Shown: positions 15,156 to 20,804 of the stretch, one piece after another
Numbering within the stretch: position 1 is the stretch's first letter
Layout: each line of letters starts with the position of its first letter
Assembly: GCA_026989265.1 (NCBI GenBank)
Contig: JALSJP010000032.1
Span: 1 to 38,949 of the forward strand
Length of the DNA stretch: 38,949 nt
Direction of reading: 5' to 3'
Source of the DNA: Micavibrio sp.
GTDB taxonomy: Bacteria > Pseudomonadota > Alphaproteobacteria > Micavibrionales > Micavibrionaceae
Notes under the pieces: model-generated
Database searches by the model: none
Told to the model about the DNA's origin: nothing
Seen by the model: the letters and a program-made list of their open reading frames with translations, nothing else
Translations under genes and position numbers: made by a program

Positions 15156-15965
15156 CTAGCTACGGGCCACCATCATTTTTTTGATCTCGGCAATTGCCTT
15201 GGCGGGGTTTAGACCTTTGGGGCAAGTATTTGTGCAATTCATAATAGTATGACAGCGATACAAACGGAATGGATCTTCTAATTGGTCGAGGCGCTCGCCC
15301 GTTGCATCATCGCGGCTATCGGCTATCCAGCGATAAGCTTGTAGCAATACCGCAGGGCCCATAAATTTATCCGAGTTCCACCAATATGACGGGCAGCTAG
15401 TAGAGCAGCAAAAGCACAAAATGCAAGCCGCAGGTCCATGTCCGTCTGAGCCGTTTAGCACAAGCGCGTCATCTTCAGATTGCAAACGTTCACGGCTTGG
15501 CGGCGGGCTATCTGATCTAAGCCATGGCTGGATAGAGCTATATTGCGCGTAGATATGGTTAAGGTCAGGCACTAAATCCTTGATAACGGGCATATGTGGC
15601 AGAGGAGTTATTTTCACATCGCCTTTCACATCGCCAATATCTTTGGTGCAAGCAAGCGTATTTGTACCGTCAATATTCATCGCGCAAGAGCCGCATATCC
15701 CCTCACGGCATGATCGGCGCAGCGTAAGCGTGCTATCGACATTATCCTTTATATAAAGCAGAGCGTCCAAAACCATAGGCCCGCATTTATCAAGGTCAAT
15801 CTTAACCTCATCAAGGCGCGGATTTTTCACCTCGCCATTTTCATCCTTATCATCGGGTGACCAACGATAAATCGTGAATGTCTTTGTATTCTCGCCGCCA
15901 TTTGAAGCATCAATTTTCTGCCCCTTTTGGATTGTTGAGTTCTTTGGAAGTGTAAATTCAGCCAT
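15156..15965 (-). CDS. sdhB: Succinate dehydrogenase iron-sulfur subunit
   Basis: Electron-transfer subunit of complex II, 269 residues. The plant-type [2Fe-2S] cysteines are at 86, 91, 94 and 106 ([10 protein letters not shown]...LAC). The C-terminal ferredoxin domain has the [12 protein letters not shown] and [14 protein letters not shown] clusters for [4Fe-4S] and [3Fe-4S], and the ubiquinone-side SYWWN Trp is present. Its ribosome binding site AAGGCAGGT lies in the 21-base gap after the restriction gene. It therefore retains its own translation signal but has been separated from sdhA by about 2 kb of R-M genes. Confidence 0.96.
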
Positions 15966-15986
15966 TATTACCTGCCTTTTATAATT

Positions 15987-16994
15987 TTAAAGTTGCTTTA
16001 AAATATCTATTGTTAAATTTTTAACCGAATATACTCCGCTCAATTTTTGTAAAAAAGTGCGTGTGTTATAAATTTCATCCGCAACAAATATTTTAGTATT
16101 ATGCCCTAGAATTATTTTTGCTTTTTCTTCATTTAAATCTAATCCTAACGTTATTTCTATCATCACATCAATGTCACTGCTTAAAGATGTTTTAATAAAT
16201 TGCTTATATCGCTCTCTAAGAGTTCTTTTTGCGCCTATTCCATAGGTGCGCCCTTCTAATTCAAAAAACAAGTCAAATTCGGTGCTTTTATCATTTTTAT
16301 CATGTATTTTTTGTATGCAGTCTTCTGGAATTCCTGCTTTTACTAAAACACTAAAAATACGTTCTTCATAATTACTGCCAGAATCAGAAATAATTGATTG
16401 ATTTACACTCTCTGAAAACATAAGCATAAAAATTTGATTTGGCTCTATGCCTATTTTTTGTAAGCGTATTGCTTCTTTTGAAAGCCTTTGTATATAATCG
16501 TGGGAATCTTGAGATAGTAAGTTTGTGTCACCATTTTCTAGTTTTTCAAAAAATAATAATGATAGTAGTGCGCCATTTACCCTTGTAGAATACGGACTAT
16601 ATAAGGATTTTTCGTCATAAGCTAAAGATAATGGATCCATAGTAGACATCGCTTCAGTATCAATCATATTCTTCATTTTCGCTTCAGCTAGAAGCAGGTC
16701 TTTTATCATGTAAAGTTTTAAGCTAAAGATAAAAACATCCATATCTATTTGGCTATGAATATTGGCAATAAGTTTATAGAAATTCTCTGATTTTAACTTG
16801 CCTTTGATATTTTTAGAATATGTGTCCAATACAGATAGTTGCTCTGATAACTGCTGGCTTAAGAGTAAGTTTGATAAAAGTGTGTTTGCTTGCTTATCTG
16901 ATAGGCTGGTTTTGACGAGGTGTTTGAGCCAATAATAAAATTTTAAATTTAAGTCAAATTTATCATCTACAATGGTAAGTTTTTCGAATTTCAT
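15987..16994 (-). CDS. Putative type II restriction endonuclease, PD-(D/E)XK superfamily
   Basis: 335 residues with low-complexity, Lys/Leu/Ser/Ile-rich composition. Residues 1-200 are mostly helical with no recognised motif. The C-terminal part has a plausible nuclease core: an N-terminal helix with GSNYEERI (Glu210/211), then TEFDLFF with Asp241, a strand ending YGIGAK with Lys256, and TLRERYKQF directly after. The K-x-T-x-(K/R)-(D/E)-R-(W/Y)-x-Q pattern resembles the EcoRII/PspGI/Ecl18kI group, although the Glu expected 13 residues after the Lys is Thr here. Assignment as the cognate endonuclease also rests on position: it starts three bases after the cytosine methyltransferase stop. The region is visibly AT-rich (14 G+C in 60 bases at 16081-16140, against 33 in 60 at 15661-15720 in sdhB). 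Target site unknown. Confidence 0.75.
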   Translation of the reverse strand: MKFEKLTIVDDKFDLNLKFYYWLKHLVKTSLSDKQANTLLSNLLLSQQLSEQLSVLDTYSKNIKGKLKSENFYKLIANIHSQIDMDVFIFSLKLYMIKDLLLAEAKMKNMIDTEAMSTMDPLSLAYDEKSLYSPYSTRVNGALLSLLFFEKLENGDTNLLSQDSHDYIQRLSKEAIRLQKIGIEPNQIFMLMFSESVNQSIISDSGSNYEERIFSVLVKAGIPEDCIQKIHDKNDKSTEFDLFFELEGRTYGIGAKRTLRERYKQFIKTSLSSDIDVMIEITLGLDLNEEKAKIILGHNTKIFVADEIYNTRTFLQKLSGVYSVKNLTIDILKQL

Positions 16995-16997
16995 TGT

Positions 16998-18008
16998 TCA
17001 TTTCCCTACAGCTTCACATATTTTCTTTGCTACTGCTCTTATAACTGGAACAGCAACGCTATTTCCAAATTGCTTATATGCTTGGGTATCACTTACAGGA
17101 ATAATAAAATCATCAGGAAAACCCTGTAGCCTTGCAGCCTCCCTTGGTGTTAATTTACGAGGATTTTTGTCTTTTTGTTCAATAAGAATTTCTGAACCAT
17201 CTTTATAATACCGCGCGGAAATAGTGCTTGTATATCCCGAATCATGATTAAAAATAGAATATCCAAAGCCATTTCCTTTTGCTCTGTGCTCAAGCTTTCT
17301 TCGCTTGTGTCCTGCCCATAATTTATTAGAGATAGTATATTTATCATCAACATGATTTTTAGATAAAATATCACCGACCTTTACTTTTTTACAACATGGA
17401 ATAGGGAATGAAAATTCTATATCATCTCTAAAAGCAATAATATATATGCGCTCTCTGTTTTGAGGTACACCAAAATTCTTAGCATTTAAGATTTCTGTAT
17501 AAATATGATAACCAAGTTCTTCAAGTTTTTCTTTAACAACTGAAAATGTTTTACCTTTATTGTGTCCTTTGAAGCCTTTTACATTTTCTAAAAAAAGAAT
17601 TTTTGGTTTATGGAGTTTTACAATACGGCAAATATCAAAGAATAAAGTTCCCCTTGTATCATCAAACCCTTTTTTATGCCCAGCATTAGAAAAAGGTTGG
17701 CATGGGAATCCTGCTAATAAAATATCAAAAGACGGAATGTGATTTTCATCTATTTTTGTTATATCACCATGGGGAATTTCACCATAATTAGCCGCATATG
17801 TTTGCCCAGCATATTTATCCCATTCAGAAGAAAATACACATTGTGCCCCTAATTCATCAAAAGGCTTTCTAATGCCACCAATTCCAGCAAAAAGATCAAT
17901 AAATTTATATCCTGATAGTGGAAGATTTTCTTTAAGGCTGTCCTGAAAACATTGCGCATAAGCAATGTTAATTAAGTCTTCTTGTATAGGTTGGCAATCT
18001 CTCATCAC
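16998..18008 (-). CDS. DNA (cytosine-5-)-methyltransferase of a type II R-M system
   Basis: 336 residues, transferring methyl from S-adenosylmethionine to cytosine C5. The motifs are in canonical order: I FIDLFAGIGG (37-45), IV GFPCQPFS with catalytic Cys103, VI ENV (141-143), VIII QNRERIYI (183-190), a target-recognition region of about 195-285 including HRAKGNGFGY, IX LTPREAARLQGFPDDF and X GNSVAVPVI. The frame opens with GTG at 18008, two bases after the sdhA TAG; an ATG follows at 18003-18005. Either start makes translation closely coupled to sdhA. The restriction gene follows after three bases. No separate promoter or controller gene is apparent. It protects the genome from the partner endonuclease and is probably a horizontal acquisition. 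Confidence 0.95.
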   Translation of the reverse strand: MMRDCQPIQEDLINIAYAQCFQDSLKENLPLSGYKFIDLFAGIGGIRKPFDELGAQCVFSSEWDKYAGQTYAANYGEIPHGDITKIDENHIPSFDILLAGFPCQPFSNAGHKKGFDDTRGTLFFDICRIVKLHKPKILFLENVKGFKGHNKGKTFSVVKEKLEELGYHIYTEILNAKNFGVPQNRERIYIIAFRDDIEFSFPIPCCKKVKVGDILSKNHVDDKYTISNKLWAGHKRRKLEHRAKGNGFGYSIFNHDSGYTSTISARYYKDGSEILIEQKDKNPRKLTPREAARLQGFPDDFIIPVSDTQAYKQFGNSVAVPVIRAVAKKICEAVGK

Positions 18009-18009
18009 A

Positions 18010-19800
18010 CTAATAAACCCTTTTCTTGGGTGGAATGGGGTCTATTTCATCGGTTAGAGTTTCCATGATAACGGGGCGGTAGGAAATATCGCTGTTACCC
18101 TTTTCATCAATTGCAATCACCGTATGTTTCATCCATTTAACATCATCACGATCGGGAAAATCATCACGAGCATGCGCCCCGCGTGATTCTTCGCGGTTTG
18201 CGGCGGCGTGCATAGAAACCACTGCTTGCGAGAGCAGATTATCAAGCTCTAACGCCTCGACAAGGTCAGTGTTGAAAATCATAGAGCGGTCTTTAATTCC
18301 GATATCAACCTTGGCAGCAAAACATTCATTAATCTTGCCAACGCCTTCATTCATGCTGTTGCCATTTCGGAAAACGGGCGCATGGGTTTGCATTGTGCGT
18401 TGCATTTGATCGCGAAGCTTCGCGGTAGAAGTCCCGCCATTCGAATTACGATAGTGATCCAGCCTAGCAATAGCTTTAGAGCCATCATCCGCGCCGCATG
18501 GTTTATGAGCTGCCCCCGCTACGACGACTTCTGCAGCTCTATTAGCAGCAGCCCTGCCAAAGACCACAAGATCAAGTAACGAGTTAGAGCCAAGGCGGTT
18601 TGCTCCATGCACAGAAACGCAAGCCGCCTCACCAATAGCCATAAGCCCAGCAACAACGGCGTTTGGATCGCGCTTAGTTGGGCGCAAAACTTCTGCCATA
18701 TAATTTGTCGGTATCCCGCCCATATTATAATGCACAGTCGGAAGCACGGGGATAGGCTCACGAGTAACATCAACGCCAGCAAATATACGCGCGCTTTCCG
18801 CAATCCCTGGCAGGCGCTTGCCGATAACCTCCGGCTCTAAATGCATAAGGTTAAGATATAGATGGTCTTTATGCTCGCCCACTCCGCGCCCAGCGTTAAT
18901 CTCCTCAATCATAGAGCGCGAGACAACATCGCGGCTAGCTAAGTCCTTGGCAGAAGGGGCATAGCGCTCCATAAATCTCTCGCCTTCTGAATTGGTGAGA
19001 TACCCGCCTTCACCGCGCACGCCTTCGGTAATCAAGCAGCCCGCGCCATATATTCCCGTTGGATGAAACTGCGTGAACTCCATATCTTGCAAGGGCAAGC
19101 CGGCGCGAAGCACCATAGCATTACCATCACCAGTGCAGGTATGAGCCGAGGTACAAGAAAGGTAAGTACGCCCATATCCGCCCGTTGCCAATATAACTTC
19201 ATGAGCGCGGAATCGGTGCAGCGTGCCTGTGTCTAAATCCCAAGCCATAACGCCTATGCATTGCCCGTCATCACTCATTATCAGATCAAGCGCGAAATAC
19301 TCAATAAAGAACTGCGCGTCATGTTTTAATGCTTGCGTATATAAAGTATGCAAAATTGCATGACCTGTGCGGTCAGCCGCCGCGCAAGTGCGCTGCGCCG
19401 TTCCTTTGCCGAAATGAGTTGTCATGCCGCCAAATGCACGTTGATATATTTTGCCCGCCGCCGTGCGCGAGAATGGCACTCCGTAATGTTCAAGCTCAAT
19501 AATCGCGGGGATAGCCTCACGGCACATATACTCAATAGCATCCTGATCGCCGAGCCAGTCACTGCCCTTGACCGTGTCATACATATGAAACTGCCAGCAA
19601 TCCTCACCCATATTACCAAGAGCCGCAGATATACCGCCCTGCGCCGCCACTGTATGCGAGCGCGTTGGAAAAACCTTGGATATAATGGCAGTATTAAGTC
19701 CCTTTTCCGCGCATCCCAGCCCAGCGCGCAAGCCAGCGCCACCAGCGCCAACTACTACTACGTCAAATTCATGGTCTATAATTTCGTAAGAATCTGTCAT
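18010..19800 (-). CDS. sdhA: Succinate dehydrogenase flavoprotein subunit
   Basis: 596 residues; oxidises succinate to fumarate in complex II at the inner membrane. The dinucleotide-binding GAGGAGLRA is at about 18-26. The covalent FAD histidine is His49 in [11 protein letters not shown]. The substrate-binding and catalytic regions are seen in QFHPTGIYG and TEGVRGEGG (catalytic Arg near 290). The C-terminal [15 protein letters not shown] helical domain is present. The ATG at 19800 has AAAGGAAT upstream. It is preceded by a hairpin and a small gene remnant rather than directly by sdhD, and its stop almost touches the inserted methyltransferase gene. The protein itself appears intact. Confidence 0.97.
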
Positions 19801-20023: not shown

Positions 20024-20419
20024 TTAACCCCCGAAAGATATTTTTAGAATACTGAAAATAATTGCTACGCCCATGGCAAAGAATAATATCTTATGGCATA
20101 TGAGTTTAGCCATTTTAAGGGGTTCATTAGTTATATAATCTTCAACGACTACTTGAGTGCCGAGCTTGGCATGCAGCATTACAGAGCAAACTAAAATTAT
20201 CATTAATATAGCGTTAATTGGTTGTCCAAGCCATGCGCTAAACTCCACATAGCTCACGCCTTGCAGGCTTATAATTGACCATATAAGCCAAATAACAAGC
20301 GGGATTTGCGCAAGTGCTGTAATCTTTTGCATCATCCAATGGTGAGTGCCTGTGTGGGCAGAGCCAAGCCCCTTGGCTTTTTTGAGTGGAGCAACATATA
20401 GATCATTATCTTTAGACAT
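20024..20419 (-). CDS. sdhD: Succinate dehydrogenase membrane anchor subunit
   Basis: 131 residues with three hydrophobic segments (about 36-55, 62-84, 107-128). It has the family signatures GSAHTGTHHWMMQKITA near the N-terminus and HAKLGTQVVVEDY near residue 83, which contribute to haem and quinone binding. It starts seven bases after sdhC, consistent with co-translation of the two anchors. Sequence identity to enteric SdhD is low, as usual, so the call rests on these motifs and the operon. Confidence 0.9.
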   Translation of the reverse strand: MSKDNDLYVAPLKKAKGLGSAHTGTHHWMMQKITALAQIPLVIWLIWSIISLQGVSYVEFSAWLGQPINAILMIILVCSVMLHAKLGTQVVVEDYITNEPLKMAKLICHKILFFAMGVAIIFSILKISFGG

Positions 20420-20426
20420 TTATTTT

Positions 20427-20804
20427 CTACCTCGCTAAAATCCAAGTGACAGCCGTTAAAATAATTGCTCCCGCAATCACATAGTAATTAGAGCGCATTG
20501 CTTTTTTCTTATCAAGTAGCTTGCCCGTATCAAAAAACATATGGCGAATACCATTGCACATATGAAAGTAGAGCGCCGCCGACCATAAGAACAAAATTAT
20601 TTGCCCAATCGCGCTAGTTGCTAAGCTCATGACAAAGTTATAATGAGCCTCACCACTTGCCGAGGCAATGAAAAATGCAGCAATCAGCAAAGTTCCAATA
20701 GCAAGGCTAACGCCCGTTATACGGTGAGTTATAGACATTAGAGCAGTCAATGGAAGCTTATATATTTGCAAATGTGGGGATAATGGTCGTTGCACTGGTT
20801 GCAT
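20427..20804 (-). CDS. sdhC: Succinate dehydrogenase cytochrome b556 subunit
   Basis: 125 residues, three transmembrane helices. The N-terminal RPLSPHLQIYKLPLTALMSI followed by THRITG is the classic SdhC quinone-site signature, and the haem-ligand region HMCNGIRHMFFD lies in the second half. It is the first gene of the operon, with a promoter candidate about 45-70 bases upstream. It anchors the SdhAB dimer to the cytoplasmic membrane. Confidence 0.94.
   Translation of the reverse strand: MQPVQRPLSPHLQIYKLPLTALMSITHRITGVSLAIGTLLIAAFFIASASGEAHYNFVMSLATSAIGQIILFLWSAALYFHMCNGIRHMFFDTGKLLDKKKAMRSNYYVIAGAIILTAVTWILAR

Follow-up and report, generated by a model that had tools for sequence, protein, structure and literature searches.

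The window, the whole 38,949 nt stretch of Micavibrio sp. DNA analysed here, contains a succinate dehydrogenase (sdh) operon in which the two genes of a restriction-modification (R-M) system lie between sdhA and sdhB. How did the pair come to lie there, and do its genes and sdhB depend on the respiratory operon for expression?

Gene order and the two enzymes

The six genes lie on the minus strand in the order sdhC-sdhD-sdhA-M-R-sdhB. The sdhC (20427..20804; PF01127, 8.8e-31) and sdhD (20024..20419; PF01127, 3.2e-16) genes are followed by sdhA for the flavoprotein subunit (18010..19800), M for a 336 aa C5-cytosine DNA methyltransferase (16998..18008), R for a 335 aa PD-(D/E)XK restriction endonuclease like those of the CCGG family (15987..16994), and sdhB for the iron-sulfur subunit (15156..15965). 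Because their family models are covered (TIGR01816 over 1-584 of 584; NF004616 over 4-236 of 238), sdhA and sdhB look intact. This order agrees with the original prediction, and the spacings given there were reproduced exactly. At the sdhA-M junction (18002..18012), M starts with GTG 1 nt, or with ATG (at 18005) 4 nt, behind the sdhA stop; R follows M after 3 nt; and the R-sdhB spacer (15966..15986) is 21 nt and includes an AGG-containing stretch resembling a ribosome binding site. No gene other than M and R separates sdhA from sdhB, and the 1, 3 and 21 nt spacers leave no room for a controller gene, which had also been described as absent; in this the pair is unlike C-protein-controlled R-M systems. 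The predicted AT-richness of the cassette was likewise found, with GC contents of 33% for M and 30% for R versus 51% for sdhA, 47% for sdhB and 42% for the whole window. As the source genome is a draft in 34 contigs, a misassembly at the locus is formally possible.

Judged from its sequence, M is an intact C5-cytosine methyltransferase whose target-recognition region resembles that of Dcm. It matches PF00145 over 1-323 of the 324 Pfam positions (3.6e-111), and the best PDB matches of the whole protein are M.HhaI chains (1.4e-79). The conserved motif columns are retained in the family alignment (A2), with the Type II catalytic motifs intact. For the 76-residue target-recognition piece just two entries, 3lx6 and 3me5, reach an E of 0.01 or better, both listed as cytosine-specific methyltransferases, which we take to be Dcm (CCWGG). 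We assume that M groups with the Dcm/M.EcoRII-type enzymes, with which it shares the C5 methyltransferase family and the match of its target-recognition piece, although it differs from them in being 336 aa long and in an N-terminus that is variable across its family.

The R protein of the window alone gave noise-level matches only, with E 0.029 in Pfam (below the cut-off), a best E of 0.047 against PDB, and no match in NCBIfam or PADLOC, nor at E 1e-5 in plasmid and phage collections. A reading of R as an unknown protein, with weak PDB profile matches to internalins and ribosomal proteins, was set aside. The endonuclease label is used because homologues and a structure model back it. EcoRII-C (PF09019) is matched at E 0.1 or better by 30 of the 37 aligned R members, a set that includes the window protein, itself not among the 30; the best match is 6.1e-6. 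The model (mean pLDDT 79.8, pTM 0.62) aligned best in VIA-align with Ecl18kI (2fqz; Z 12.2, 136 residues, 3.0 A), followed by PspGI (Z 10.7), a Cdn1 entry (10.1) and EcoRII-C (Z 9.7), a ranking to be read knowing that partly helical models may score high Z through a common arrangement. Foldseek also placed Ecl18kI closest (E 1.6e-3), with zero matches at E 0.001. The likeness to Ecl18kI, PspGI and EcoRII-C extends over the fold of about residues 120-335 and the D...K followed by R-E-R. However, identity over the aligned residues is 8-21%, a second acid is not evident in R, and R has an additional helical N-terminal part of about 110 residues (about residues 10-116). With M intact and the R label backed in this way, the pair looks complete, as had been claimed.

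Residues E239, K256 and R260-E261-R262 are invariant in all 37 aligned members, and D241 is present in 36. The CCGG family is described as carrying its recognition motif, R-(D/E)R, behind the catalytic lysine (PMC6344858, PMC4652773). In R this motif stands 4-6 residues behind K256, the same spacing as that of K165 and R169-D170-R171 in BsaWI (PMC4652773). The usual active site of the family is PD...K...E/D, with the second acid 12-13 residues behind the lysine, and the exceptions described include Gln and a permuted E...ExD...K in PfoI (PMC6344858). In all 37 members, K and T occupy the positions 12 and 13 residues behind K256, and E210, E239-x-D241 and K256 could fit a PfoI-like permuted arrangement. 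An R family that the libraries used leave unnamed is now linked to the CCGG-family enzymes, with a predicted site that can be tested.

That site, a prediction drawn from two different proteins, is CCNGG or CCWGG; M would methylate it and R would cut the same site when unmethylated. We compared observed/expected (o/e) frequencies of palindromes in samples of the window genome (414 kb, loci L134-L153 and the window), its sister species G010 (115 kb) and a further relative, G009 (400 kb). CCWGG had o/e values of 0.31, 0.29 and 0.32, respectively. As G010 and G009 lack an R match yet are equally depleted in CCWGG, the genome does not confirm the predicted site. GGCC, which misfits that site, was depleted more strongly in the window genome than in the other two, at 0.21 against 0.67 in G010 and 0.80 in G009, and in the pooled flanks of 35 R-M copies many palindromes were depleted, not just the predicted one. 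Both G010 and G009 contain other C5-methyltransferase matches, so they have an R-M history of their own, and palindrome avoidance has been described as a possible trace of lost R-M systems (PMC4687349). Two other palindromes were also strongly depleted in the window genome, with o/e values, in the same order of genomes, of 0.18, 0.12 and 0.73 (CCGG) and 0.09, 0.07 and 0.63 (GGCGCC). Elsewhere in the window genome (G000:C6:2980-3264), a short PF00145 match with an in-frame TGA is a possible remnant of a lost methyltransferase gene, and a congener carries two tandem PF00145 methyltransferase genes (G004:C42:230-2096).

Distribution and genomic setting of the M-R family

A genome scan for R returned 45 loci labelled as Alphaproteobacteria, Campylobacterota, Patescibacteria lineages, Rickettsiales and others, most of them binned metagenome records in which some taxon labels may be wrong. 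An M-like sequence lies directly upstream of R at 40 of the 41 loci that have upstream sequence; the remaining four begin less than 100 bp from R at a contig end. The M-R spacing, taken from longest-ORF starts, is -50 to +10 nt at 35 of the 38 loci with a called ORF for each gene. By these counts, M and R travel together. Two of the family members (L050 and L070) have a second C5-methyltransferase-like gene directly behind R.

Among the relatives of the window genome, R is present in 2/104 genomes of the family and 2/58 relatives. The second R-bearing genome, G028, has a decayed copy in which R is interrupted by a TAG and M is broken; this copy, on contig C38, is not at sdh, as sdhB lies on C9. 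An ancestral arrangement across the class is not borne out by this sparse distribution and the position of the second copy. The original prediction had treated the arrangement as not ancestral, and this holds, with R so rare in the family and a direct sdhA-sdhB junction in most of the genomes sampled outside the order (see below). The decayed copies are that of G028 and of an alphaproteobacterial bin (L034, JAJRSA010000032.1), with M broken and a TAG within R in both records, and that of L057, with an M without the recognition region and Y in place of D241 in R.

The divergence of M and R from near relatives is mostly synonymous, with dS near saturation (R versus L034, dN 0.11 and dS 1.19; M versus part of L075, dN 0.14 and dS 1.82). 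By eye, homology to L034 and L075 starts in the first codons of M and ends with R. Neither flanking repeats nor a target duplication bracket the insert, the longest word common to both edges being 6 nt, and no mobility gene lies between sdhA and sdhB. In these respects the pair is unlike R-M systems carried by transposons or insertion sequences. We infer that it was acquired horizontally as a bare two-gene cassette and that its arrival was recent.

Orientation relative to neighbouring genes was assessed at 34 of the 45 R loci, broken copies included. Both neighbours are co-directional with the pair at 24 of these 34 loci, versus 37% expected (p 8e-5), and where the two neighbours agree in strand the pair follows them in 24 of 27 cases (p 2.5e-5). 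Names could be given to 18 of 20 hand-picked neighbour proteins, the other two having no match. At L040, the pair lies between two ABC-transporter permease genes, presumably PstC and PstA, with gaps of -8 and 1 nt, and at L054 between the trigger factor and ClpP genes, with gaps of 82 and 174 nt. The neighbours are ATP synthase epsilon and a radical SAM gene at L035, and COQ9 and CvpA-like at L065; at L063 a histidyl-tRNA synthetase gene is downstream.

The sdhA-sdhB junction in related genomes

We found sdhB in 54 of the 58 relative genomes. The sdhA-sdhB gap was measurable in 39 of the 52 sdhB loci that were fetched, and exceeded 300 bp, up to 7.3 kb, in 28. One of these gaps (G006) is a run of N in a genome whose own sdhB start is 16 nt after sdhA, a direct junction, leaving 27 of 39 loci truly interrupted (27/38 with G006 dropped). 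At six further loci, the roughly 9 kb upstream of sdhB contain no sdhA, and the seven loci left out of the 52 end 0.6-4.2 kb upstream of sdhB without sdhA. Within the order, gaps of more than 300 bp occur at sdhD-sdhA in 6/36 and at sdhC-sdhD in 1/36.

For other orders of the class, we used 29 genomes, a non-random draw of the best-scoring among 59 matching genomes other than that of the window: 27 have a direct junction, one has 530 bp between the genes, and one has no sdhA within 1.5 kb. The sdhA-sdhB junction is interrupted in 27/39 loci in the order versus 1/28 measured outside it. Fisher tests that ignore shared descent gave p 1e-8 (27/38 versus 1/28) and p 4e-9 (33/44 versus 2/29), and the count represents a single order and one sdhB tree in which the bootstrap has not settled and 20/50 forks are open. 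The relatives show that sdhB is readily uncoupled from sdhA. This points to a weakened sdhA-sdhB linkage in one order, the linkage being steady in 27 of the 29 genomes sampled from other orders. The original prediction had proposed to look in close relatives for an uninterrupted junction; G003 has one, of 16 nt.

The cargo at these junctions was called mechanically (83 ORFs, of which the 73 of at least 95 aa were scanned), so some ORFs may be spurious. By family, GGDEF (7) is the most frequent, followed by isocitrate dehydrogenase (3) and the uracil-DNA glycosylase superfamily (3); the others among those listed (25 of 34 families) have one or two members each. PADLOC families are represented by PDC-S09, which is the MNT protein of G010, mad3, mad8 and a desaturase, with one member each. 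Many of the other inserts lie on either strand with wide spacers. As the cargo is mainly metabolic or signalling, the idea that the junction is a hotspot for addiction modules is weakened. In one family (f3), three genomes (G056, G053 and G044, at L111, L114 and L120) have in common a 507-bp insert whose co-directional, closely spaced gene encodes a member of the uracil-DNA-glycosylase superfamily, a further case of a gene within the operon.

The genome that is sister to that of the window in the sdhB tree is G010 (support 100/90, in a single-gene tree where many other forks are weak). Its junction codes for a 98-aa PF18765 protein, which begins 1 nt after sdhA ends, and for a 138-aa PF08780 protein ending 3 nt before sdhB, a MNT-HEPN pair predicted to be a toxin-antitoxin-like module. 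The two domains are those of HEPN-MNT type VII toxin-antitoxin systems as described in PMC7641770 and PMC11586414, while the window carries another kind of module. The HEPN protein has relatives in 10/104 genomes of the family and no match in the window genome.

The 8 nt right after the sdhA stop (TGTGATGA) are common to the window and the G010 junction. The window also has a 9-nt match to G003, while G010 and G003 share 4 nt only. Among 6000 draws of random 25-mers from the window, 8-nt matches occurred in 0.9% and 9-nt matches in 0.3%. These matches are only suggestive of the M start region having been captured from the host sdhA-sdhB spacer.

Expression of the pair and competing explanations

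A scan for sigma-70-like sites, the one promoter type covered, gave 24 matches versus 20.4 +/- 4.1 in shuffled sequence, and a terminator scan gave 6 versus 6.2 +/- 2.7, so both are at chance level. The earlier observation that no promoter is visible thus extends, for the sigma-70 type, to a scan that also found no terminator signal above shuffled sequence. With no recognisable promoter of its own, the pair is most likely read on one sdhCDA-M-R-sdhB transcript. The explanation that we prefer, and think probable, is that a horizontally acquired M-R pair occupies the sdhA-sdhB spacer, is co-transcribed with sdh and recognises a CC(N)GG-type site. An intact Type II pair, M then R without accessory genes, would have landed in a short sdhA-sdhB spacer. 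The sdh promoter would drive its expression. Translation would re-initiate at M after sdhA, that of R would be coupled to that of M, and sdhB would be translated from its own ribosome binding site.

The original prediction also had SdhB depending on read-through of the R-M genes. In four relatives (G004, G005, G007 and G009), sdhB adjoins an opposite-strand isocitrate-dehydrogenase-like gene. Given these and the six genomes without a nearby sdhA, much of the group presumably expresses sdhB independently, which speaks against strict dependence on read-through. This presumed promoter of sdhB in congeners, together with a 9-of-12 promoter-like match just before sdhB, also lends something to the idea that the genes are independent of the operon, with the promoter of the pair inside the 3' end of sdhA and that of sdhB inside R. 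However, the number of matches equals chance, the one before sdhB ends on the start codon, and spacers of 1 and 21 nt leave no room, and we consider this explanation improbable.

The two remaining readings concern the site itself. On one, genomes of this order simply tolerate a break between sdhA and sdhB, and the R-M pair is one unrelated passenger among many. We lean towards this reading, to which the high frequency of interruption at sdhA-sdhB relative to sdhD-sdhA and sdhC-sdhD, the direct junctions outside the order and the diversity of cargo families all point. Against it, the R-M and MNT-HEPN pairs run with the operon and have spacers of 1-21 nt, in contrast to many of the other inserts, an objection tempered by the similarly tight uracil-DNA-glycosylase insert of f3. 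On the other reading, which is compatible with the co-transcribed cassette that we prefer, the pair holds the operon hostage: its loss would require an exact excision restoring sdhA-sdhB, and an imprecise loss would add damage to complex II to the killing by leftover endonuclease. The pair does stand between two subunits of one complex, the family members at L040 and L054 lie between two permease genes and between the trigger factor and ClpP genes, the MNT-HEPN pair of G010 occupies the same junction, and operon maintenance through killing has been proposed for operon-inserted R-M systems (PMC4615327, section 8). We nevertheless find this reading doubtful. In this group sdhB is frequently apart from sdhA, and the sdhA-sdhB junction offers just two tight addiction-module cases. 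For many bacteria succinate dehydrogenase is not an absolute requirement, and the decayed copy in G028, though not at sdh, indicates that loss by mutation is possible. Loss of the cassette may, as originally predicted, affect complex II and in this way help to stabilise the pair.

A broader proposal would be that the sdhA-sdhB junction of this order repeatedly takes up foreign genes, that an R-M and a MNT-HEPN module in two sister species independently captured operon transcription and even the start region, and that this R-M family, which occurs in records from many phyla, specialises in promoterless insertion into housekeeping operons, tying its expression and retention to them. We put this forward tentatively and suspect that it will not hold in full.

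The general arrangement of an R-M system in an operon is already known. PabI-family R-M systems in Helicobacter and Campylobacter are described as same-strand pairs within operons of linked genes, namely glutamate synthase chains and histidine genes (PMC4615327). The pair examined here resembles them in lying on the same strand between functionally linked genes, but the enzymes differ, PabI being a DNA glycosylase, as does the operon, and here a sister species has another two-gene module at the same junction. A literature search covering few subscription journals returned no earlier description of an R-M pair in the sdhA-sdhB spacer, and in the passages of PMC2614495 consulted no housekeeping operon is described as carrying an inserted R-M system. 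The landing site, often broken in this order, is unusual. The locus is a clean natural example of an R-M pair whose expression is probably governed by a respiratory operon instead of a control circuit of its own, and the related genomes supply built-in comparisons: an empty junction, a toxin-antitoxin insert and a metabolic gene insert.
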